From the NCBI GenBank assembly GCA_947090545.1, contig CAMUPC010000007.1, positions 1 to 42,274 on the forward strand: a DNA stretch of 42,274 nt, read 5' to 3'. Shown here one piece after another: positions 6,284 through 23,662 of the stretch. This DNA is from an uncultured Eubacterium sp. (lineage in GTDB: Bacteria > Bacillota > Clostridia > Lachnospirales > Lachnospiraceae). The translations under genes and the position numbers were made by a program. Numbering within the stretch: the stretch's first letter is position 1; every line of letters begins with the position of its first letter. The notes beneath the pieces were generated by a model that was given only the letters and a program-made list of their open reading frames with translations, made no database searches and was not told the DNA's origin.

Positions 6284-6516
6284 AGCGTCCTTCCATGACC
6301 CCCCCCCACACACAAAAAAAACCGTGAAAAAAACACACAAAAATGCGAAAAAATAAGACTTGCATTTTCAAATATCTTCAGTTAAAGTACGCAAGGAAAT
6401 TATCCTTCTCTTTTTTCATTTTCATATTGTCACAACACCACGAAAAGGATAAAATAGAATGGGATTGCTCAATTTTGGCGTAGAATGCGGTTTTAAGAAG
6501 AAACAGGGGGATTAGT

Positions 6517-11595: not shown

Positions 11596-14259
11596 TCAAA
11601 CAGGCCATTCTTTCCTGATTTCAGCAATAATGCTGTTTTTGAGCATTTGTCTTGCCGGCAAAAGAACCGCGACAACAGATATGGCGACGTTCAATGCCAA
11701 AATCAGAATTACGAAGTACAAAGGCACAGATGCTGAAATATGCAGAAACTGAATCACATGCTGCATATAATAAATCATCATCCTTTGCAGAACGGTTCCA
11801 AATAACAGTAGAAGCAGTATATTAGCCAGCATACCGTACCAAAAGCCTTCTTTTGCAATGATTTTATACAGCTTGCTGTCAGTGGTTCCCATCGCTCTTA
11901 ACAGTCCGAATTCATAGCGTCTTGACAGGATGGAATAGCTCATGCTGTTCATCATGTGAAACAGGCTCATTATCAGCACAATCGCGGCAATTGCCGTAAA
12001 AAACATCTGCTGCCGCTGTAAATAGTTTTTCTGGGAATCGATGGCTTTTGTGTAATCGTGTAAAACCGCTTTTGGAATATGGCGTATCTCAGTAAGCAGT
12101 TGTCTTGTGATGGAATCATTGTCAGCATCGTTCCTGCCGGACGCGCTTATAATTTTATATTGACGGATCTGAAAATTCGTCTGCATCTGGTCGTTTGTCA
12201 TAATGATGGAAGGCGCGGTTTTCCATACGCCCCGGATAAGAAAATATTGTTCTGTAACAAGGGCACGGCTGACAATAGCTGCAATTTCCAGTTCTGTTTC
12301 TGTATATTCGTCTGGCGATGATTCAAATGTTAATAAATCGTCACTGTTTTTCTGGCTTTTCGGTACTTTTACTTTCACAAAATCTCCCGGGTGCCTGCCG
12401 TAAAAATCATAGTTGCCCTGTGCGTCTACGTTGGCAACGGCTATGATTTTATTGGAACGCCGCATATCCGCAAGGTCGATTTCCCCCTCCAGCACATATT
12501 CATCCAAAGAGCGGATCATGCCGTCATCATATCCGTAAATGTCGTATTTGATTCCCAAAGTGCCCTGCTTCCTCTTTGCATACAATCCGCCGTAGTCCTG
12601 CTGGATGCCTGCGTCCTGATGATGTTCGTCAAAATAATGTTTCCATGTTAATTCTTCCTGATGGATGGCAAGTTCTCCTAATGTGTACTTTGTAGCATAC
12701 ACCTGGTCCAGCTCTGGCAGATTCTTGATTTTGTGCACAGCGGCTTCGGGAATTTCGTCAGCAAGAGAGTTTGTTTTTAAAGAGATCTTATATTCGGAGT
12801 TTAACCCATCATCCGATTGCAATGACATCTGCGCATGTATTTTCAAGTTTTCAACCATATATGAGGTACATAAAAAAATGCAGCCGCCTAAGGAAAGTGA
12901 AAATAAGATGCCGAAAAACGTTCGTTTTTTCTCAAACATAAATTTGCGGATTATCACGCCCGATAAGTCCACGTGTGTATCGCTGTAGATCCTGCGGCTT
13001 CTATTTGCGCCAGAGGCTTGTTCTGCTATGGTTTCGCGTAGCGGCTGTTTTTGAATCCGCTTTACGGTAAGGCAGGCGATGCCGGCAAGGGCGGCAAACA
13101 GAACGGCAAATCCAATCAAGGCGGCATTCCAGGATATAAAAAAGTGCTGGCTTGCTCCGCTGTCGGCGAGTGTCATTTCAGATGAGGCAAGCAGTGTTTC
13201 GCTTCCGATACGGGCTGTTTTGCCGAATAAAGAGCCGATCTGTTGATAGCTTAACGCAAGGATTCTATTACTGATGAGCGCACCCAGCGGATAAGCGAGA
13301 CAAAATAAGATCCACAGCTCTGCCGCCAGAGTTTGCAGGAGATGTTTCCCGCTGATCCCAACTGTCTGCATAACGCCATACTGTGACATTCGCTTTGATA
13401 CTGAGATCTGAAAAATACTGTAAATTACAAATAAACTGAAGAAACACAGGAACAGAAGCATTCCATAAAAGCTCAGATTGTATTCGCTTTGCAGCTTTAG
13501 AATGATATAGGTAAAGTTCCCCTGCTTATTTGTGAGCCCGAATGTTAGGATTTCATAAATAGAATCCGGTTCTTCTCCGTGTAAATAACGGGTGACGGGA
13601 TCATTTCCCTCTACCTTGTCGCCAGCGATCTGAAAGCGCGTAAGAAAATGGTTCAGCTGCTGATATAATGGCGTTTTTTCATCAAATTTTACGTAAAGAA
13701 AGTGTTCGGTTCCTCTTCCCTGGAACTGGCTGCCGACGAACACTTCCATACGGTCCACGTTTGCAGACCATTCGCTTTGCATAATGCCGGACAGCACATA
13801 CTGGTTTCCCGCAATCTCGATACGGTCGCCGATGCCGCCGCGAAATCCCAGACTGCCAAGCGTAAAAGGATCTGCCGCGACTTCGTTGGCACGCTTTGGA
13901 TAGCTCCCTTCTGTTAGCTGCCGGTGCGTCATTTGACGGTAATGGGCATCTGTCTCAACAAAAAAGATCTGGAAGGGCTGTTCGGCGGCGTCTTTTACAA
14001 TTTTTCGTCCAGTCAGGACGGCATGATAGCCTTTGCCCTGCTGATTGTGCAGTATTTCTTCGCAAAGCCCGGCGTCTACATGGATATTGTAATGCCAATC
14101 GCCGTAGATCAGCCTGTCGTGCTCCAGGTCATTCCTCTGGCTGCTGTACAGCAAAGAGCTGATACCAGTTAATAAGCCTGCCGTCAAAAAAATGCTCATA
14201 AAGATCGCACATGTCTGGCTTTTATAATATTTCATTGATTGGTATGCAAATTTTAACAT
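11596..14259 (-). CDS. FtsX-family ABC transporter permease
   Basis: An 887-aa membrane protein. One membrane segment at about residues 15-40 precedes a large extracytoplasmic domain of about 230 residues. A cluster of three segments follows (FYGMLLFLCFFSLFVIYS onward), then a second repeat of the same plan with a single segment near 460 and a terminal three-segment cluster. This is the FtsX/MacB-like topology seen in transporters that extract antimicrobial peptides or lipoproteins from the membrane. The start MLKFAYQS has AAAGGAG just upstream and overlaps the ATPase gene by seven bases, so the pair is translationally coupled. No BceRS-type regulator is adjacent. Confidence 0.92.
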   Translation of the reverse strand: MLKFAYQSMKYYKSQTCAIFMSIFLTAGLLTGISSLLYSSQRNDLEHDRLIYGDWHYNIHVDAGLCEEILHNQQGKGYHAVLTGRKIVKDAAEQPFQIFFVETDAHYRQMTHRQLTEGSYPKRANEVAADPFTLGSLGFRGGIGDRIEIAGNQYVLSGIMQSEWSANVDRMEVFVGSQFQGRGTEHFLYVKFDEKTPLYQQLNHFLTRFQIAGDKVEGNDPVTRYLHGEEPDSIYEILTFGLTNKQGNFTYIILKLQSEYNLSFYGMLLFLCFFSLFVIYSIFQISVSKRMSQYGVMQTVGISGKHLLQTLAAELWILFCLAYPLGALISNRILALSYQQIGSLFGKTARIGSETLLASSEMTLADSGASQHFFISWNAALIGFAVLFAALAGIACLTVKRIQKQPLRETIAEQASGANRSRRIYSDTHVDLSGVIIRKFMFEKKRTFFGILFSLSLGGCIFLCTSYMVENLKIHAQMSLQSDDGLNSEYKISLKTNSLADEIPEAAVHKIKNLPELDQVYATKYTLGELAIHQEELTWKHYFDEHHQDAGIQQDYGGLYAKRKQGTLGIKYDIYGYDDGMIRSLDEYVLEGEIDLADMRRSNKIIAVANVDAQGNYDFYGRHPGDFVKVKVPKSQKNSDDLLTFESSPDEYTETELEIAAIVSRALVTEQYFLIRGVWKTAPSIIMTNDQMQTNFQIRQYKIISASGRNDADNDSITRQLLTEIRHIPKAVLHDYTKAIDSQKNYLQRQQMFFTAIAAIVLIMSLFHMMNSMSYSILSRRYEFGLLRAMGTTDSKLYKIIAKEGFWYGMLANILLLLLFGTVLQRMMIYYMQHVIQFLHISASVPLYFVILILALNVAISVVAVLLPARQMLKNSIIAEIRKEWPV

Positions 14260-14954
14260 AAGCGCTCCTTTCGGATCAGGATTTGCGCAATTTTTCCATC
14301 CTCGATCCTGATGATTCTGTCGCACTGGCTGGCAAGCAGATCGTTATGAGTCACCATTAATACGGTCTGCCGATATTTTTGGGCAGTGCTTTTTAACAGT
14401 GCGAGTACTTCCTTCGCCGTATTGGAATCCAGGTTTCCCGTCGGTTCATCGGCAAGCAGTATCGCCGGGCGGGTTGCCAGTGCCCTTGCGATCGCAACTC
14501 TTTGCTGCTGCCCTCCCGACAGCTCGTTTGGGTATTTTTTGCGTTTTTCCCAAAGTCCCAGCTCATGCAGCAGCATTTCTATTGTGTTTTTGTTTTTCTT
14601 TTTGTTTTTCTTTTTCTCAAACATCATGGGCAGGGCGACATTGTCATATACATTCAGCACGGGCATCAGGCTGTAATTTTGAAAAACAAATCCGATATTT
14701 CTTCTTCTGAAAAGCGTCATCTCTTTGCGGCTGAGGTGATGGATTTGCCTGCCTTTTACGATGATTTTTCCACTGGTCGGCTGGTCGAGCCCGCCGATTA
14801 GGTTCAGCAGCGTGGATTTTCCAGAACCAGAGGTTCCGACAATGGCGGTAAACTCCCCTTCCTGGATCTGAAAGCTGACGTCTCTGACCGCTTTTACGGC
14901 ATGATCGTTCGTTTTGTAGGTCTTTTCTACCTGTTCTAATGTTAATACTTCCAT
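14253..14954 (-). CDS. ABC transporter ATPase (MacB/LolD type)
   Basis: A 233-aa ATP-binding subunit for the FtsX-type permease encoded immediately downstream. Walker A is GTSGSGKST, the signature is LSGGQQQR, Walker B is ILLADEPTGNLD and the switch histidine is in VTHN. The ADEPTGNLD form is typical of the MacB/LolD/FtsE branch. A lysine-rich insert (KKKNKKKNKN) at about residues 118-127 is an oddity, encoded by a low-complexity A/T-rich run. The start MEVLTLEQ has GAAGGAG upstream. The stop overlaps the permease start by seven bases. Confidence 0.96.
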   Translation of the reverse strand: MEVLTLEQVEKTYKTNDHAVKAVRDVSFQIQEGEFTAIVGTSGSGKSTLLNLIGGLDQPTSGKIIVKGRQIHHLSRKEMTLFRRRNIGFVFQNYSLMPVLNVYDNVALPMMFEKKKNKKKNKNTIEMLLHELGLWEKRKKYPNELSGGQQQRVAIARALATRPAILLADEPTGNLDSNTAKEVLALLKSTAQKYRQTVLMVTHNDLLASQCDRIIRIEDGKIAQILIRKERLC

Positions 14955-15153
14955 AGTTGCTCCTTCTTTCATGCGAATCCGCAGATGGCGTGTAATCGGT
15001 TTCTTTTCTGTCAGTATATCAGAAAAATGATGAATAAGGGCAGAAGCAGTGATTAAGAATTGCGAAAGGAATGATTAAGAATGTAACCGTATTCTAATTT
15101 GCAAAGCAAAAGCAAAGATAAACGTGAAAAAATGGAATCCATAGGCCTGTTTG

Positions 15154-15601: not shown

Positions 15602-16330
15602 TCAGTAAGCCTGAGCCAGTGCCTGATACACAGCAAGATTATGCGCATTCCATTCCACGCCTTTTCCCTGTTCACCCTCCTGATCGGAGAAGATGACAGA
15701 AACCATTCTGGCATGGTCTTTAAAAAAATCCCAGTTTTCCTCATTCAGCCCTCTCCGGCAGTTTTTCCAGTACGTCTGACAGGCTTCCAGATCATTTTCT
15801 GAAAGGGCGTCACTTAAAATACTGCTGCCCCAGTACTGTAGGGATTCAGATGGTTTGACAGGCTTTAAGTTCATCGTATCTTGAGGTACCGCAGGCTCCG
15901 TTGCGCTGAAAGGATAGTATTCCGAAACGGTTGTGCCATAAGCCTGTTCCAGATGTTTTTTCACAGGAGTTAAATCTGCCTCTTGCGGATAATACGCCTG
16001 AATCCGGCACAGACGTTGTTTTCCTGCGTTCTGCCCGGGCATTTTGCTTAAGGAGGCGAAATCGATGAATGAAAAGAACACGCGCTCTGCCTGTTGGCCG
16101 AATACGTCGATATCCGTAATGCCAAAGCTGGTTGTTAAATTGTTTTCATCATAGAGCACGGTATGTTCTTTTGCAGTCTGAAATGCCTTCATAACATCTT
16201 CCGGCGTCATATCCCATGCCAGTTTTGGGAATTCCAGATTTTCTGTCTGTGTTTTTTCTTCTGACTTGCCGCAGGCGCATAAGAAAACCGTACATAACAG
16301 CAGTATTGCTAAAAATCGTTTCTTGGCCAT
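15602..16330 (-). CDS. Lipoprotein of unknown function, paralog 1 (flanks the agr-type locus)
   Basis: A 242-aa secreted lipoprotein. The signal peptide FLAILLLCTVFLCACGK has a lipobox-like FLCAC, so it should be tethered to the outer membrane face. I do not recognise the mature domain. It shares most of its length with the 242-aa protein at 20039-20767; the C-terminal block from CQTYWKNCRRGLNEENW through VSVIFSDQE is nearly identical. The phrase LAWDMTPEDVMKAF resembles short calcium- or ligand-binding repeats of envelope proteins, but that is a guess. An upstream box (TTTCCACAATGGAA near 16438-16451) recurs before the paralog. The two copies bracket the signalling genes and may be duplicates made when the locus was acquired. 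Confidence 0.85.
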   Translation of the reverse strand: MAKKRFLAILLLCTVFLCACGKSEEKTQTENLEFPKLAWDMTPEDVMKAFQTAKEHTVLYDENNLTTSFGITDIDVFGQQAERVFFSFIDFASLSKMPGQNAGKQRLCRIQAYYPQEADLTPVKKHLEQAYGTTVSEYYPFSATEPAVPQDTMNLKPVKPSESLQYWGSSILSDALSENDLEACQTYWKNCRRGLNEENWDFFKDHARMVSVIFSDQEGEQGKGVEWNAHNLAVYQALAQAY

Positions 16331-16474: not shown

Positions 16475-16682
16475 CTTCTGAATATTTAGGCTGACGTTTC
16501 AGAAAGCCTTAAACTTAGACTAAATGATTCTTACTGATCTGATGAGGATAGTTTATCATACCATTTAATTGCTTAGTTTGTTTTATCCTAAAAGGTAGAG
16601 TTTTTTCATAGGCGTTTTTTAGAAACGGAACGATTTGCGCTTAGGCAGAATTACATATCGCAAACGTATATTTTTATACAGA

Positions 16683-17633
16683 TCAGGAATCTTCGTATAT
16701 TTCTATCAGTTGTGTAAAATACTGATCCTCATATTCTGTATCCATGGTGATATGATCATATTTGTTGAGGATAGATCTGACATTGTACAGACCAATCCCT
16801 CGCCGAGTTCCTTTTGAGGAAATGCCTGGAGTACCCAATTTGCTGTAATCAAGCTCTTTTTTTACATATGTATTTCGTACAATAAATGTAACGCCTTGAT
16901 TGGTTTTGATCATGCTTAGATCAATACAGGAGGGAGTACACTCCTGGCAGGCTTCGATGGCATTGTCCAGCAATATGCCCGTAATCCTTACCAGATCAAG
17001 AGTGTCCATAGGTATGGTTTCGATTCTTTCTGTTATTTCCAGGTTGACAGAAATATTCAGTTCCAGTGCATAGTTTATTTTCACAGAGACGAGTCCTTTA
17101 AGTTCGAGGATATTCAGATTATTTAGTTTGCTTATTACATCATTTTCTTTGTTTAATAGATGATTCAGCGGAAAAATATGCTTTTCGTAATATGCCTTTA
17201 GCCCTTCTATATCGTTATTTTTAAGATAGATGAACATACTTGCCATAATATTGGCATAATCATGCCGAAAAACGCGGATATTTTGATATAATTCTTCGAT
17301 CTGTGACATATATTCTTGCAGATTATCATAAGAATCCTGCTTCATCGTAATTCTGGCGTTTACCTCATATTCTTTGATAATCAATACAATCATAATAAAC
17401 GTCAGCACAAAATATGCGATGTAAAGTCCTACACTGCATAATAAAAGTATTGGAGGCGAATCTGCTTCATTTGTTATGGTTATATGAATGGTAAAGATAA
17501 GTATACATAGTAGTAAATCTGCTCCCACTACCGCAATGATTTTCGGTGACAGACCCAGAAATTCCTGGTTTTTTATTTCTTTCGCTTTTTTAGAAAAAAA
17601 ATCCGCATAGCATATAAAATATGGGGAGCTCAA
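16683..17633 (-). CDS. AgrC-type histidine kinase, C-terminal kinase part (split by frameshift)
   Basis: The 3' portion of an AgrC/ComD-type GHKL kinase, about 303 residues after the frameshift. It shows two more membrane segments, the histidine box FRHDYANIMAS, the asparagine box LLDNAIEACQEC and the glycine box GTRRGIGLYNVRS. The first 13 residues of the open frame, read from a TTG at 17633, are an out-of-frame translation of the membrane segment encoded by the upstream part. Removing one base from the eight-T run (plus-strand A run 17594-17601) fuses the two frames into one protein of about 431 residues, the usual AgrC length. As written the kinase lacks most of its peptide-sensing membrane domain. 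Whether it is a pseudogene, a phase-off allele or a read error cannot be decided here. Confidence 0.88.
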   Translation of the reverse strand: MSSPYFICYADFFSKKAKEIKNQEFLGLSPKIIAVVGADLLLCILIFTIHITITNEADSPPILLLCSVGLYIAYFVLTFIMIVLIIKEYEVNARITMKQDSYDNLQEYMSQIEELYQNIRVFRHDYANIMASMFIYLKNNDIEGLKAYYEKHIFPLNHLLNKENDVISKLNNLNILELKGLVSVKINYALELNISVNLEITERIETIPMDTLDLVRITGILLDNAIEACQECTPSCIDLSMIKTNQGVTFIVRNTYVKKELDYSKLGTPGISSKGTRRGIGLYNVRSILNKYDHITMDTEYEDQYFTQLIEIYEDS

Positions 17634-17982
17634 TTATCAAGCAAATAGTATACGTTAAATAGTTTTTGATTGGTTCTATGCCTGCTATTTTCCAAATAAA
17701 ATGTGATATATTATCCACAATTACAACAGACATATAGGATAACACAACTAGAAAAATATTCCATAATACATCTTCTTTTTTTAGCCAGTAAATATACAAT
17801 AGTAGTATTGCAAACATAGGCAGTACAAACAGGGCGCTCTTTCTAAGTTCTGTCCTTAATATGAAAAATCCTAATATTACTGTAATAATAATATTATTTA
17901 AAATTGTCAGTCGAAATGTCAAACTCCTGTTGAGAATTATTAAATATATTAGCATACTAAAAGCTGCAATTAGTATATTCAT
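17590..17982 (-). CDS. AgrC-type histidine kinase, N-terminal membrane sensor part (split by frameshift)
   Basis: A 130-codon frame with four strongly hydrophobic segments, as expected for the N-terminal peptide-sensing domain of AgrC. It starts at MNILIAAF with AAAAGGAAA upstream. It ends GFFF-stop directly after eight T residues; with seven T residues it would continue as GFFSKKAKEIKN into the kinase domain. The gene lies 184 bases downstream of the AgrD-like gene on the same strand. It is too short to be a known stand-alone family and is best read as half of the broken kinase. Confidence 0.85.
   Translation of the reverse strand: MNILIAAFSMLIYLIILNRSLTFRLTILNNIIITVILGFFILRTELRKSALFVLPMFAILLLYIYWLKKEDVLWNIFLVVLSYMSVVIVDNISHFIWKIAGIEPIKNYLTYTICLIIELPIFYMLCGFFF
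17594..17601. repeat. Eight-base homopolymer at the kinase frameshift
   Basis: An A8 run on the plus strand (T8 in the coding strand) sits exactly at the junction of the two kinase frames. A change of one base restores a full-length AgrC-type protein. Homopolymers of this length are classic slippage sites. Confidence 0.85.
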
Positions 17983-18057
17983 TTAATTAATGTTTCCTTT
18001 TACACATAATTACATTTTTGATCTACTAAGCTAATGCCTAAATACGTTATATAACAC

Positions 18058-18143
18058 TAAATCTTCGATCGTTCATAAAAATTAACAAAAATATAACATA
18101 AAGAAATTTTTGTTAAATTTTGTCACTCACGATCGAAGATTTA
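18058..18143. other. Long hairpin between the AgrD-like and AgrC-type genes
   Basis: TAAATCTTCGATCGT at 18058-18072 is perfectly complementary to 18129-18143. Inside it, 18082-18092 pairs with 18106-18116. The structure spans 86 bases, with nine and twelve unpaired bases between the two stems. It lies after the AgrD-like stop and before the kinase start. It could attenuate or process the transcript, or be a tiny mobile inverted repeat; no T run follows, so it is not a standard terminator. Confidence 0.7.
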
Positions 18144-18166
18144 ATTTGAAGAAATGAGATGATTTT

Positions 18167-18322
18167 TTATCGGTTACTAAGAATTGAGTTATTCATTTGT
18201 CTTTCTTTTTTTAATTCCATCGGGACTTTAATTTCGTATATTCCCCATGAAATTGATTTTCCAACTCCGTTTTTCCCAACCTCACATAAAATATTGATGA
18301 TCTGTTTTTTTAATTTTTTCAT
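18167..18322 (-). CDS. AgrD-like cyclic autoinducer peptide precursor
   Basis: A 51-aa frame, unnoticed at ordinary length cut-offs. AGGAGA lies nine to ten bases before the ATG. The layout fits AgrD: a basic, amphipathic N-terminus (MKKLKKQIINILCEVG), a short central segment (GKSISWGI) and an acidic-proline tail (YEIKVPMELKKE) resembling the YxPKxPxxL tail that AgrB recognises. There is no cysteine in the ring region; Ser23 or Ser25 is the only likely nucleophile, so the product may be a serine lactone. By comparison with clostridial peptides, cleavage could fall before Tyr29, or after it to give a five-residue SWGIY ring. It lies between the LytTR regulator and AgrC-type kinase genes. Assignment rests on context and pattern, not on a search. 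Confidence 0.72.
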   Translation of the reverse strand: MKKLKKQIINILCEVGKNGVGKSISWGIYEIKVPMELKKERQMNNSILSNR

Positions 18323-18350
18323 TCTATATCTCTCCTAAAACAATTGATTT

Positions 18351-18384
18351 ATATGATACAATTATATCATATAAGCTTATTATA
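18351..18384 (-). promoter_or_regulatory. Candidate promoter and palindromic operator of the AgrD-like gene
   Basis: On the minus strand a TATAAT lies at 18384-18379. There is no good -35 element 17 bases before it, as expected for an activator-dependent promoter. Just downstream, ATATGATA (18351-18358) and TATCATAT (18365-18372) form a perfect dyad with a six-base spacer. LytTR-type regulators usually bind paired direct repeats near such promoters; I cannot define those repeats here. Confidence 0.4.
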
Positions 18385-18514
18385 TACACACTTTTTCCTA
18401 AAAGCTGACTTTTATTTCATAAGCGTATTTGCCAGAAAATATTTCTGTACATTTGTTCAAATCCATCCTAACCTGGATCAATCAGAATATCAACTGGTTC
18501 GATCAAGTACTGTA

Positions 18515-19246
18515 TTAGATCATCTTCTTTATTTTCCCAAGCATCCGATGCGCAATCGGACAGCAAGCTCCTGTACTCAAAACAATACATTTATCTTCGC
18601 AATTTACTTCTTTAATCTTCTTTTTCTTGACCAGATATGCTCTATGGCATCGTATAAATTCCTCTCGTACCTCATCTTCGATTTCCTTCATTTTTCCAAA
18701 AAATTCAATACTTTTATTTTTTGTATGTACAATAATCTTATGTTCATTTACAGAAGTCTCAAAAAACAGAATTTCCTGATACTCCAGAGTAATCCTGCGT
18801 CGGCTCCTTATGATCGTAATTGTTTTCCCGTTTCCGCGTGTAATTTTACTGTATTTTTGCATAACATGCGCCATACATTCACAGATCTGCTGCTGTAATT
18901 GCTGCGGATGGTCTTTTAATAGAAAATCAAGCGCTTCCACTTTATATTGAAAGGTCAAAAAAGACATCTCCGAATGTGAAGTGATAAATATAATAAACCC
19001 TCTTGGATCATATTCCCGGATTTTGCTTGCAAGTATCAGCCCGTTCATATCAGCCCGCAATTCAATATCCAGAAAATAGAGCCCCATATTTTCAGACTCT
19101 TTCACTGCGTCCAGAATCTTTTCAGGATCTCCTGACTCTATCTGAAGCTCCATATCATATTCCTCAATCAGAATCGCTGAGCGGACATATTGTGCAATGA
19201 CCCTTCGTTGTTCCAGATTATCTTCACAGATATACACATCTATCAT
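18515..19246 (-). CDS. LytTR-family response regulator (AgrA/ComE type)
   Basis: A 243-aa regulator. The receiver domain has an acidic start (YICEDN), phosphoacceptor Asp in YFLDIEL and a lysine in LLKDHP. The C-terminal LytTR DNA-binding domain runs from about residue 140 (KTITIIRSRRRITLEYQEILFFETS ... CHRAYLVKKKKIKEV). AAGGAG lies upstream of the ATG. It is divergent from agrB and upstream of the AgrD-like and kinase genes on its own strand, so it is the likely output regulator of this peptide signalling locus. In typical agr operons the regulator gene is last; here it is first and is separated from the kinase by the peptide gene and a long hairpin. Confidence 0.93.
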   Translation of the reverse strand: MIDVYICEDNLEQRRVIAQYVRSAILIEEYDMELQIESGDPEKILDAVKESENMGLYFLDIELRADMNGLILASKIREYDPRGFIIFITSHSEMSFLTFQYKVEALDFLLKDHPQQLQQQICECMAHVMQKYSKITRGNGKTITIIRSRRRITLEYQEILFFETSVNEHKIIVHTKNKSIEFFGKMKEIEDEVREEFIRCHRAYLVKKKKIKEVNCEDKCIVLSTGACCPIAHRMLGKIKKMI

Positions 19247-19297
19247 TTGATTACTCCTTGCGCTAACGTATAGTTTTGCTGCGTTTAAGAAATTTTT

Positions 19298-19325
19298 TTG
19301 ATTTTTTTTCGTTTTGCCTTATACT
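19298..19325 (+). promoter_or_regulatory. Candidate agrB promoter in the divergent control region
   Basis: TTGATT at 19298-19303 and TATACT at 19320-19325 are separated by 16 bases and lie 34 bases before agrB. The 112-base interval between agrB and the LytTR regulator gene must hold both divergent promoters and any regulator sites. Confidence 0.5.
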
Positions 19326-19358
19326 GATGACAGAGCAAACAGGCAGGTGGTATGTATA

Positions 19359-19919
19359 ATGGAATTCTTTTTAAAAAAGTTAAGTGAAAAAATTATCCAT
19401 TTTCTTGATCCAGAACAGCAGTGCGGTAAAATAGAAAGATTGCAGATGCATTTTGCTCTGGAAACAATCTTCTACAATCTGTTGACAGCATTTCTTATTT
19501 TATGGACCTCTTATTTGCTTGGCTCTTTTCGGCAAACGTTACTTTTATTCTGCGTTTTTGGATTGCTTCGCGTCATTGCCGGCGGCTTCCATTTTGATCA
19601 TATGTTAAAATGTATCTTAACAAGCACATTTCTTATGGTTGGCGGAGGAAAGGCAGCGCAAATGTGGCAAATCAATCTGACGGTATGCCTGATGATCTGT
19701 TTCTTCACAAACCTTTTGTTTTTTATACATATACCAAGGGGAACCGCAAATAATCCGTATTCAGAAGCATACAGTCAGCTACAGAAAAAACGGCTGCGCA
19801 TACTTTCCGTTTTACTGACGCTTTGTGCCATATATTTCGTGCGTGTAAGAGCAATCCTGTTATTTGCGATGTTTGCTGCTGCGGTTCTGTTAATACCTGA
19901 TCTTTATCAGAGGTCTTGA
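19359..19919 (+). CDS. agrB: AgrB-type cysteine peptidase and peptide exporter
   Basis: A 186-aa integral membrane protein that cleaves an AgrD precursor and forms its (thio)lactone. The catalytic pair His78 and Cys85 stands in GGFHFDHMLKC with the usual seven-residue spacing. About five hydrophobic segments follow the amphipathic N-terminus, and length matches the family. The start MEFFLKK has AGGTGG eight bases upstream; the frame is open further back but without a ribosome site. No AgrD-like frame lies directly after it; the only candidate is on the opposite strand at 18167-18322, an unusual arrangement. A hairpin follows the stop. Confidence 0.93.
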   Translation: MEFFLKKLSEKIIHFLDPEQQCGKIERLQMHFALETIFYNLLTAFLILWTSYLLGSFRQTLLLFCVFGLLRVIAGGFHFDHMLKCILTSTFLMVGGGKAAQMWQINLTVCLMICFFTNLLFFIHIPRGTANNPYSEAYSQLQKKRLRILSVLLTLCAIYFVRVRAILLFAMFAAAVLLIPDLYQRS

Positions 19920-19984
19920 TTAGCAGAAGCGGATATTATGAATCAAATATAATCTACATTTGCAGCCATACGGTGGGCATTACC

Positions 19985-20015
19985 AGAAAGGGGGAGTTTT
20001 TAACTCCTCCTTTCT
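19985..20015. terminator. Hairpin between agrB and the convergent lipoprotein gene
   Basis: AGAAAGGGGGAG (19985-19996) pairs with CTCCTCCTTTCT (20004-20015) at 11 of 12 positions with a seven-base loop. There is no clear T tail on either side, so it may be a weak bidirectional terminator. Confidence 0.5.
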
Positions 20016-20038: not shown

Positions 20039-20767
20039 TTAATCGTCTGTTTGTCCGGTCAGAATCTGATGCACCACAAAATTATGTGCATCCCATTCCA
20101 CACCTTTTCCCAGTTCACTCTCCTGATCAGAAAAGATCACGGAAACCATTCTGGCATGGTCTTTAAAAAAATCCCAGTTTTCCTCATTCAGCCCTCTCCT
20201 GCAATTTTTCCAGTACGTCTGACAGGTTTCCAGATCATTTTCTGAAAGGACGTCCCCCAGGACACTGCCGCCCCAGTACTGCACCGAATCAGATTCCGGC
20301 AAAGGCTTGAGGTTCATTGCATCGGCTAAAAGCGCTGTTGTGCTGAAAGGGTAATATTCCGAAACCGTTGAGCCATAAGCCTGCTGCAATTTCTCTTTTA
20401 CAGGCGTTAACTCTGCATCCTGTGGATAATACACCCCGATCTGGCACAGGCGGTGTTCTCCTTCCTCCTGTCCAGGCATTTTGCTTAAGGAAGCGTAATC
20501 GATAAAAGAGAACAAGACACGTTCTGCCTGCTGTCCGAACACCTCGATATCTGATATCCCAAAACTGGTTGTTAGCTTGTTTTCATCATAGAGCACGGTA
20601 TGTTCTTTTGCAGTTTGAAATGCGTTTAAAACTTCTTCTGGCGTCATACCCCATGCCAATGGTGGAAATTCCAGATTGTCTGCCGGAGCTTTTTTCTCTG
20701 CCTTGCCGCAGGCGCATAAAAAAACGGTACAAAGCAGCAGTACGGCAAAACGTCTTTTCTTTGTCAT
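20039..20767 (-). CDS. Lipoprotein of unknown function, paralog 2 (flanks the agr-type locus)
   Basis: A 242-aa lipoprotein with signal peptide FAVLLLCTVFLCACGK. It is clearly homologous over its full length to the protein at 15602-16330, with the strongest match in YGSTVSEYYPFS and the C-terminal CQTYWKNCRRGLNEENW block. The start MTKKRRF is chosen because GAGGAGGG lies just upstream; the longer open frame has no ribosome site. The mature domain is not recognised. It lies downstream of a PadR-type regulator gene on the same strand, about 170 bases away, with a box similar to that of paralog 1 in between. Confidence 0.85.
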   Translation of the reverse strand: MTKKRRFAVLLLCTVFLCACGKAEKKAPADNLEFPPLAWGMTPEEVLNAFQTAKEHTVLYDENKLTTSFGISDIEVFGQQAERVLFSFIDYASLSKMPGQEEGEHRLCQIGVYYPQDAELTPVKEKLQQAYGSTVSEYYPFSTTALLADAMNLKPLPESDSVQYWGGSVLGDVLSENDLETCQTYWKNCRRGLNEENWDFFKDHARMVSVIFSDQESELGKGVEWDAHNFVVHQILTGQTDD

Positions 20768-20889
20768 AAGATCCCTCCTCGTTGAACAGAAACGATTTCT
20801 GTCCCAAATGATTGATTTCATCAGTCGCTGTATCATATCAAATATGCAAAATTCTTTAGCCGCCAAAAGCTAACATAAGTATTTTGATT

Positions 20890-21754: not shown

Positions 21755-22738
21755 TTAGATGCCATATTCATGAAATAATAACTCACGGTATGCTTCATCC
21801 TTGGAAGAACGTGCAAGGTCATCATAGCGCCCGTTTTGGATCAATAAATCTTGTAACCGGCATATCCGTTCCATGCCGCGTTTTTCCCCGATTTGGATGC
21901 CGCGTTTTTCCCCGATTTGGATGCCGCGTTTTTCTCCGATTTGGATGCCGCGTTTTTCCCCGATTTGGATGCCGCGTTTTTCTCCGATTTGGATACCGCG
22001 TTTTTCCCCGATTTGGATGCCGCGCTGTTCGCCGCGGGCATCGGCTTCTTTCAAAAATTGGTTATGGTCGCGGATCGCTTTTTCCCTTGCCTCATATTCC
22101 AGCCGTTTGTCTTTATCCTGGCTGATGATTTGCAGCTTATGGTATGCGCTTTCAATATAGGGGTCTTTTTCAGCTAACATGTCAAAATCCTCCTTGCGCT
22201 CGGCGTTGATAAACTTAGCCCACAACAGGATAGCGCTTGCATCGTCTTTAAGCCCGCCAGGGAGCTTTGGCAGCTCGATGATATGGAACTCCATTTTGTC
22301 GGTCAGCAAAAGGCTTCTGGAGTCCTCCCTGATGTGGAAGCAGGAATAAAATTCCGGCTCGCCTTTAAACAGCTCAAAATCTAAAATGCTGATGCTGACA
22401 CATTTTTTAAATACATCGTAATCCTGCCCCTGCTCAATCTGTTCCGTATACATCTTGGCGATATAGAACAGGCACCTGTTTGACCAGACTTTTAATTCGG
22501 AGAGCTGGATCTCAGTGTCAATTTCCGTATCGTCATTCAGGGAAACGCGGATATCCAGGATGCCGAGCTTATCGTCTGCGTGCACTTTGCGTAGGTTTGT
22601 GTTTAGAAGCTCGGTCTTTTTAATGTCAGCCGGGTTTAAATTCAGCACGGCGGACAAGAAGCCGGTACGTGCTTTTTCATCGGCCATGATCTCTTTAAAA
22701 GCGAAATCAATTTTAGGTTTCATTAAGAAGTGTGCCAT
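21755..22738 (-). CDS. Rpn-family PD-(D/E)XK nuclease, copy 1 (six 24-bp repeat units)
   Basis: A 327-aa member of the recombination-promoting nuclease / transposase-like family (PF12784 type). The start FLMKPKIDFAFKEIMADE is diagnostic, and the nuclease core lies in LGILDIRVSLNDDTEIDTEIQLSE, where D and E-x-Q would bind metal. Family members in E. coli promote recombination and have been linked to phage defence. Near the C-terminus an eight-residue unit (IQIGEKRG) is repeated six times before a 41-residue tail. AGGAGA lies before the ATG. The gene is 24 bases downstream of a second, almost identical copy. The 5' 711 bases are identical between copies while the 3' ends differ. Confidence 0.93.
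   Translation of the reverse strand: MAHFLMKPKIDFAFKEIMADEKARTGFLSAVLNLNPADIKKTELLNTNLRKVHADDKLGILDIRVSLNDDTEIDTEIQLSELKVWSNRCLFYIAKMYTEQIEQGQDYDVFKKCVSISILDFELFKGEPEFYSCFHIREDSRSLLLTDKMEFHIIELPKLPGGLKDDASAILLWAKFINAERKEDFDMLAEKDPYIESAYHKLQIISQDKDKRLEYEAREKAIRDHNQFLKEADARGEQRGIQIGEKRGIQIGEKRGIQIGEKRGIQIGEKRGIQIGEKRGIQIGEKRGMERICRLQDLLIQNGRYDDLARSSKDEAYRELLFHEYGI
21875..22018. repeat. 24-bp coding tandem repeat in Rpn copy 1
   Basis: Six contiguous 24-base units run without interruption, each starting GCCGCGTTTTTC. Units differ mainly at one C/T position and, in one unit, a G/A change. The length is a multiple of three, so unit gain or loss adds or removes eight residues without breaking the frame. 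Confidence 0.95.
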
Positions 22739-22762: not shown

Positions 22763-23662
22763 TCAGATGCCATATTCACGAAATAGTAACTCACGGTATG
22801 CTTCATCCTTGGAAGAACGCGCAAGGTCATCATAGCGCCCGTTTTGGATCAATAAATCCTGTAACCTGCATATCCGTTCCATGCCGCGTTTTTCTCCGAT
22901 TTGGATGCCGCGTTCCATGCCGCGTTTTTCCCCGATTTGGATGCCGCGCTGTTCGCCGCGGGCATCGGCTTCTTTCAAAAATTGGTTATGGTCGCGGATC
23001 GCTTTTTCCCTTGCCTCATATTCCAGCCGTTTGTCTTTATCCTGGCTGATGATTTGCAGCTTATGGTATGCGCTTTCAATATAGGGGTCTTTTTCAGCTA
23101 ACATGTCAAAATCCTCCTTGCGCTCGGCGTTGATAAACTTAGCCCACAACAGGATAGCGCTTGCATCGTCTTTAAGCCCGCCAGGGAGCTTTGGCAGCTC
23201 GATGATATGGAACTCCATTTTGTCGGTCAGCAAAAGGCTTCTGGAGTCCTCCCTGATGTGGAAGCAGGAATAAAATTCCGGCTCGCCTTTAAACAGCTCA
23301 AAATCTAAAATGCTGATGCTGACACATTTTTTAAATACATCGTAATCCTGCCCCTGCTCAATCTGTTCCGTATACATCTTGGCGATATAGAACAGGCACC
23401 TGTTTGACCAGACTTTTAATTCGGAGAGCTGGATCTCAGTGTCAATTTCCGTATCGTCATTCAGGGAAACGCGGATATCCAGGATGCCGAGCTTATCGTC
23501 TGCGTGCACTTTGCGTAGGTTTGTGTTTAGAAGCTCGGTCTTTTTAATGTCAGCCGGGTTTAAATTCAGCACGGCGGACAAGAAGCCGGTACGTGCTTTT
23601 TCATCGGCCATGATCTCTTTAAAAGCGAAATCAATTTTAGGTTTCATTAAGAATGGATTCAT
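22763..23662 (-). CDS. Rpn-family PD-(D/E)XK nuclease, copy 2 (two repeat units)
   Basis: A 299-aa near-duplicate of the neighbouring gene. It differs at the second and third residues (MNPF versus MAHF), in the repeat region, and at one C-terminal residue (FREYGI versus FHEYGI). Here only two IQIGEKRG units remain, interleaved with the variant GMERG. The nuclease residues are unchanged. AGGAGA lies upstream of the ATG. Upstream, the sequence runs straight into the tail of a degraded large serine recombinase. Confidence 0.93.
   Translation of the reverse strand: MNPFLMKPKIDFAFKEIMADEKARTGFLSAVLNLNPADIKKTELLNTNLRKVHADDKLGILDIRVSLNDDTEIDTEIQLSELKVWSNRCLFYIAKMYTEQIEQGQDYDVFKKCVSISILDFELFKGEPEFYSCFHIREDSRSLLLTDKMEFHIIELPKLPGGLKDDASAILLWAKFINAERKEDFDMLAEKDPYIESAYHKLQIISQDKDKRLEYEAREKAIRDHNQFLKEADARGEQRGIQIGEKRGMERGIQIGEKRGMERICRLQDLLIQNGRYDDLARSSKDEAYRELLFREYGI
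22883..22942. repeat. Repeat region in Rpn copy 2 (24 + 12 + 24 bp)
   Basis: Two full 24-base units at 22883-22906 and 22919-22942 flank a 12-base half unit (GCCGCGTTCCAT). This is the contracted or rearranged counterpart of the six-unit array in copy 1. Confidence 0.9.

Follow-up and report, generated by a model that had tools for sequence, protein, structure and literature searches.

A 51-codon open reading frame in the window (the whole 42,274-nucleotide stretch of DNA analysed, one contig of a 4.42-Mb genome in 380 contigs) very probably encodes AgrD, the signal precursor of a Lachnospiraceae agr-type quorum-sensing system, with a predicted serine lactone at Ser23 (Table 1). The frame runs from an ATG start through 51 amino acids without inner stops, and its product is MKKLKKQIINILCEVGKNGVGKSISWGIYEIKVPMELKKERQMNNSILSNR. 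When aligned with 26 other precursors (alignment A3, 27 rows), this product has the layout of an AgrD precursor, in which a basic amphipathic leader is followed by a core and an acidic-proline tail; in the tail, Glu or Asp occupies position 30 in 27/27 rows and Pro34 is kept in 25/27. These results agree with the original prediction, which described a minus-strand frame with a good ribosome site, a leader, a short core and an AgrD-like tail, and which proposed that conservation of the tail and the serine be sought in relatives.

Table 1 Features of the agr-type locus in the window. Positions are those of the window.
Feature	Position	Strand	Basis or remark
agrB, membrane peptidase/cyclase	19359..19919	plus	PF04647; His78, Cys85; divergent from regulator gene
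AgrA-like response regulator with LytTR domain	18515..19246	minus	Response_reg and LytTR above cut-offs
Candidate LytTR-type direct repeat TACGCTTAT / AGCTTTTAG, period 21	18398..18427	minus	Score 15/18
Ribosome-binding site AGGAGAG	18330..18336	minus	7 nt before agrD-like ATG
agrD-like gene	18167..18322	minus	51-aa precursor; ORF and translation, family profile, codon comparison, alignment
Precursor parts			Leader 1-22; core from Ser23; tail from about Tyr29 (YEIKVP, Pro34)
Ser23 codon (Ser/Cys column)	18254..18256	minus	Position counted from ATG at 18322
Long two-part RNA hairpin between agrD and kinase gene	18058..18143	minus	z -6.1
AgrC-like kinase, N-terminal part	17590..17982	minus	Own frame
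AgrC-like kinase, C-terminal part with GHKL ATPase	16683..17633	minus	Frame differs from N-terminal part

The frame is under selection at the protein level. Its counterpart in a genome of the same genus (G004, locus L039) encodes a precursor that is 67-69% identical, and over 41 codons dN is 0.16 and dS is 2.6, the latter value being saturated. In the first 38 codons, the differences fall 6, 5 and 18 times on the first, second and third codon positions. Nine amino-acid changes are observed, compared with 19.3 expected under random placement of as many base changes, and 0 of 2000 random draws were as low. Absence of a coding signal from such a comparison had been named in advance as grounds for rejecting the gene; the signal relative to G004 is strong. 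Across the genus, 3 of 13 genomes match at E<=0.1, the window's own genome included, and the third of these (G008) carries a stop within the agrD core. A chance open frame that is no gene would fit the finding that the window frame itself matches none of the Pfam and NCBIfam models, TIGR04223 (quorum_AgrD) included. Selection, homologs in a like context and the shuffle control, in which the best of 39,886 frames from 120 dinucleotide-shuffled loci reached only E 1.1, all speak against it, and the probability left to chance is negligible. The original proposal of an AgrD-like gene between regulator and kinase genes is upheld.

Since the window frame lacks a match to a curated model, its membership in AgrD rests on homology via its relatives, and on this basis the frame is almost certainly an AgrD homolog. 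A family profile was built from 13 precursors in the relatives' loci, the window frame being among the seeds, and was searched against 32,043 small frames, which came from 121 stretches (the window together with L039-L158, several being mutual duplicates). Within the window this profile yields one strong match, the 18167-18322 frame (E 5e-21, also a seed), and no second AgrD-like frame, the next best reaching only E 3.7; in the window's own genome, alignment A3 likewise has one match at E<=0.001. A better AgrD candidate, which the original prediction named as a possible refutation, was thus found in neither. At E<0.3 the profile recovers 41 distinct frames (weakest 0.23), with matches in Lachnospiraceae, Clostridium, Ruminiclostridium, Pseudobacteroides and Listeria. 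The relatives adjoin AgrB, LytTR and AgrC-type genes in Lachnospiraceae, Clostridium, Ruminiclostridium and Listeria, which answers the other named refutation, a lack of homologs beside AgrB and LytTR genes in related genomes. At the same threshold, 38 of 46 distinct AgrB-holding loci contain an AgrD-like frame (13 of the 38 are the profile's own seeds, and the non-seed tally is 25/33), and the family profile recognises no agrD in the other 8. In comparison, such a frame is present in 3 of 62 distinct regulator loci without AgrB.

Curated models reach part of this family. TIGR04223 matches 9 of the 27 aligned members at E<=1; when 10 members were scanned one at a time, the model matched 5, of which two attained its cut-off, namely the serine-type L057 (20.7 bits, cut-off 19) and the cysteine-type L097. 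In Pfam, none of 13 family members has an AgrD match. In the profile search suggested for the 51-residue product, the window frame is unmatched, and a serine-type relative passes. As a sole query, the 51 residues found 5 of 397 genomes of the bacterial family, its own included, and with alignment A3 as the query 21 of the 397 were recovered at E<=0.001. Inspected by eye, these 21 comprise 15 of the window type (13 genomes already in the alignment, G117 and G261), 2 that look more classical (G142, G185), 1 fragment (G262) and 3 false matches. The false matches are G040, G358 and G334, the first two being long frames with a P-loop-like VGKS stretch. Cyclic lactone autoinducer genes are reported for one Lachnospiraceae genome in the accessible portion of PMC11352710.

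To close a ring, the precursor offers two core serines. Position 23 is Ser in 19 and Cys in 8 of the 27 aligned precursors and holds no other residue; among columns 14 to 39, no other column is restricted to these two residues. The 27 rows were chosen by hand from the 41 distinct frames, and the 14 left out are six Listeria frames and L053 with Cys at P-10 (counted back from the tail proline), L055 and L117 with Ser at P-10, the near-copies L145 and L154, the broken frames L058 and L103 with Ser in place, and the fragment L062; for L061, placement of the residue at P-11 hinges on an alignment gap. In 12 of the 19 Ser members, the core holds no further Ser, Thr or Cys, the window not being among them because of Ser25. 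With the P-10 and P-11 types pooled, the ring residue changes between Ser and Cys at least four times on both the AgrB tree (34 rows, the truncated L095 dropped) and the kinase tree (34 rows, L117 having no kinase match); starred branches force the four changes, the kinase tree was built by a quick method and long branches are flagged. A 35-row AgrB tree also requires four changes, and Cys at P-11 alone needs three. Close relatives can differ in this residue, as do Schaedlerella arabinosiphila (Ser) and Claveliimonas monacensis (Cys), and G261 is a further Ser member. In G117 (L173) and Listeria L122 and L131, Ser stands at P-11 but Cys at P-10, so a Ser at P-11 may not always be the residue that closes the ring.

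The original prediction had left the lactone to either Ser23 or Ser25, and its first option is retained. A four-residue ring closed on Ser25 draws on the presence of that serine in the window precursor; the nearest relative (G004, 67% identical) has Ala in its place, only 2/27 rows have Ser, the column varies among I/P/V/F/L/S/A/T across the set, and the rings tabulated in the accessible part of PMC12312760 have 5, 6 or 9 residues, all of which makes this ring very improbable. Because the position 23 column is confined to Ser and Cys, because Ser25 is replaced by Ala in G004 and because Ser and Cys exchange repeatedly on the trees, the window ring is likely a Ser23 lactone. The far end of this ring is predicted from tail spacing. 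In six Listeria precursors, the Cys lies five residues before YEP, at P-10, and the L. monocytogenes ring is given as the five-residue CFMFV (PMC4916163, as accessible). The window Ser is at P-11, one residue beyond the Listeria Cys, so a cut at the Listeria distance from Pro34 would yield six residues, and the ring Ser-Ile-Ser-Trp-Gly-Ile is accordingly the modestly favoured prediction. A Ser23 lactone with another end, of five residues (Ser-Ile-Ser-Trp-Gly) or of seven (through Tyr29), is a serious contender that falls somewhat short of an even chance: Gly27 is the best conserved among core positions 24-28 (19/27) and 23/27 rows have Tyr or Phe at position 29, and either could mark the ring end. 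Against this, the count back from Pro34 puts the cut at Ile28|Tyr29, just as the Tyr of YEP follows the ring in Listeria, and rings ending in Gly are absent from the table as accessible in PMC12312760. Five residues is the usual size among known rings; that of Clostridium acetobutylicum has six and that of Enterococcus faecalis nine (PMC4916163, PMC12312760). No report that combines a serine lactone with a six-residue ring was found in the openly accessible literature; each is in print singly.

The partner genes are those expected of an agr locus. The window AgrB scores 89.6 bits with PF04647 (cut-off 23), and its two catalytic residues, counted from the ATG at 19359, are those of the original prediction; both the His and the Cys are present in 35/35 aligned AgrBs. 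The genome has one AgrB at E<=0.001. The regulator scores 213.9 bits with the NCBIfam AgrA model, under the cut-off of 400, and its nearest named relatives are uncultured Eubacterium sp. and Lachnospiraceae records, which would place the host in Lachnospiraceae. In the C-terminal part of the kinase, GHKL is above its cut-off and NCBIfam AgrC reaches 180.7 bits, under the cut-off of 500. The regulator and kinase genes named in the original prediction are both present; as a correction to it, the kinase gene is split over two overlapping frames that meet in a T8 run at 17590-17633, and sensing may therefore be lost. The locus could accordingly be decaying in the window strain, the peptide perhaps still being made and the response gone. 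Such decay would be in keeping with same-genus G008, where the agrD core has its stop and only a stop-bearing agrB fragment is found at the agr locus (a second AgrB match elsewhere in G008 is above the cut-off and has one stop). Decay is nonetheless rather unlikely: the agrD, agrB and regulator frames of the window are intact, a homopolymer in an assembly of 380 contigs may reflect faulty sequencing or assembly, and all four genes are open in G004, the kinase gene being a single frame there and in G008. As a separate observation, the agrD frame with the core stop in G008 (L058 6288-6392) and a run-on agrD frame at L103 3550-3930 both have an agrB fragment or short agrB frame nearby, and agrD and agrB may decay together.

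The absence of an AgrD beside agrB, remarked on in the original prediction, is borne out by the single strong profile match. The minus strand carries, in order, the regulator gene, the agrD-like frame and the kinase gene (17982 down to 16683), so that the regulator gene lies between agrD and agrB and these two are on opposite strands. Among the 38 distinct loci with both genes, agrD and agrB are same-strand neighbours in 19, opposite-strand neighbours in 4 (L053, L055, L081, L117) and separated by another gene in 15; a missing neighbour agrD is therefore common to the window and its relatives. In 12 of the 15 separated loci the kinase gene lies between and agrB and agrD share a strand, and in 3 (the window, G004 and L080) the regulator gene lies between and the strands are opposite. 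The order agrB-agrD-agrC-agrA is found in Clostridium (with the exception of Clostridium sp. L140), Ruminiclostridium, Pseudobacteroides and Listeria, and this order links the family with classical AgrD. For clostridia, PMC12312760 describes agrBD and agrCA as able to form separate operons.

Upstream of agrD, a TATAAT (18384-18379, minus strand) lies near the candidate LytTR-type repeat. In a scan with a LytTR consensus, this repeat only equals the window's best pair elsewhere in score, which is not significant (p 0.215); the corresponding values are 0.02 in G004 and 0.01 in G008. The window and G004 share the block TACG(C/T)TTATGAAATAA...GCTTTTAGGAAAAA upstream of agrD, with two half-site-like stretches 21 bases apart. 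At p<=0.05, the scan detects sites in 7/41 agrD, 5/38 agrB and 1/33 kinase upstream stretches (5% expected by chance), with full-score pairs in L043 and L065. Given the value in the window, these sites are only suggestive. Direct repeats ACGTTCATGA with period 21 were also seen at about 4929-4960 in L043 (upstream of agrD) and about 3425-3456 in L065 (upstream of agrB). Promoter and terminator scans gave 19 compared with 17.8 and 1 compared with 1.9 in shuffles, respectively. The RNA hairpin has a counterpart at the same place in G004 (L039 about 6388-6475, z -8.7); the outer arms are common to both, and the inner arms differ yet still pair. Its exact arms occur once in the genome. Rfam gave two matches, which fall far short of the respective cut-offs and were taken as chance; the one on the hairpin is to the microRNA model MIR1444. 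As a guess, the hairpin sets the ratio of agrD to kinase message.

Other genes in the window were also noted. Paralogous lipoprotein-like genes at 15602-16330 and 20039-20866 flank the agr locus and are 76% identical in amino acids and 82% over 724 nt; in G008, some 1 kb downstream of the broken agrD, there is a relative at 29% (L058 4525-5202). The pair is possibly an output gene, or a duplication around the agr locus. Downstream of the kinase gene, an ABC transporter ATPase-like frame and a large permease-like frame (11596-14972, by eye) could, at a guess, be an agr target. Two very similar tandem minus-strand frames at 21755-22738 and 22763-23662, with RGIQIGEK-type repeats near the C-terminal end, presumably resemble Rpn/PD-(D/E)XK transposase-type proteins. 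A near-match search of a plasmid collection found no near copy of 16600-20000.

The proposed pathway would begin with the amphipathic leader placing the precursor on the membrane. AgrB would cut ahead of the acidic tail, at or beside Ile28|Tyr29, and close the peptide on the Ser23 hydroxyl to a lactone, most likely the six-residue ring named above, and a second protease would remove the leader. In S. aureus, as described in the accessible part of PMC10885120, AgrB both cuts the tail and closes the ring, and MroQ cuts the leader. The exported ring would be sensed by the AgrC-like kinase, which would phosphorylate the LytTR regulator, and the regulator would in turn activate agrD and perhaps agrB.

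Serine-lactone signals are listed for few species in the parts of PMC12312760 and PMC3673130 available, and each known system shares some of the predicted features. The C. acetobutylicum AIP [CVLVTL] is a clostridial agr signal with a six-residue ring, and its agrBD and agrCA are listed apart; in contrast to the window, the ring residue is cysteine, and the notation agrBD is read as placing agrB next to agrD (PMC12312760, in part). The Staphylococcus pseudintermedius AIP RIPT[STGFF] is a lactone with serine for cysteine, whereas its ring has five residues and its locus is agrBDCA; E. faecalis GBAP QN[SPNIFGQWM] (FsrD) is a serine lactone processed by FsrB, but its ring has nine residues and fsrD lies inside fsrB in another frame (PMC12312760 and PMC3673130, in part). 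Clostridioides difficile Agr2 NSA[SSWVA] is a clostridial system listed with a serine ring residue, yet with a ring of five residues and the locus agrB2D2C2A2 (PMC12312760, in part). The Listeria agr precursors (L119, L122, L125, L127, L131, L133) fall under the same family profile and have the YEP tail; they differ from the window in Cys at P-10 and in the order B-D-C-A, with A[CFMFV] given for L. monocytogenes (PMC4916163, in part).

There is about an even chance that the window represents a widespread Lachnospiraceae family of six-residue serine lactones, with many precursors missed by standard models, agr genes interleaved on both strands, and AgrB relatives that have switched repeatedly between oxygen and sulfur closure. 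Owing to the split gene order, a search for small genes beside agrB would miss such precursors, and the family suggests that gut Lachnospiraceae have signals that lack annotation. The natural occurrence of Ser and Cys precursors on related AgrBs would offer a direct test of the acceptance of oxygen versus sulfur nucleophiles by AgrB.
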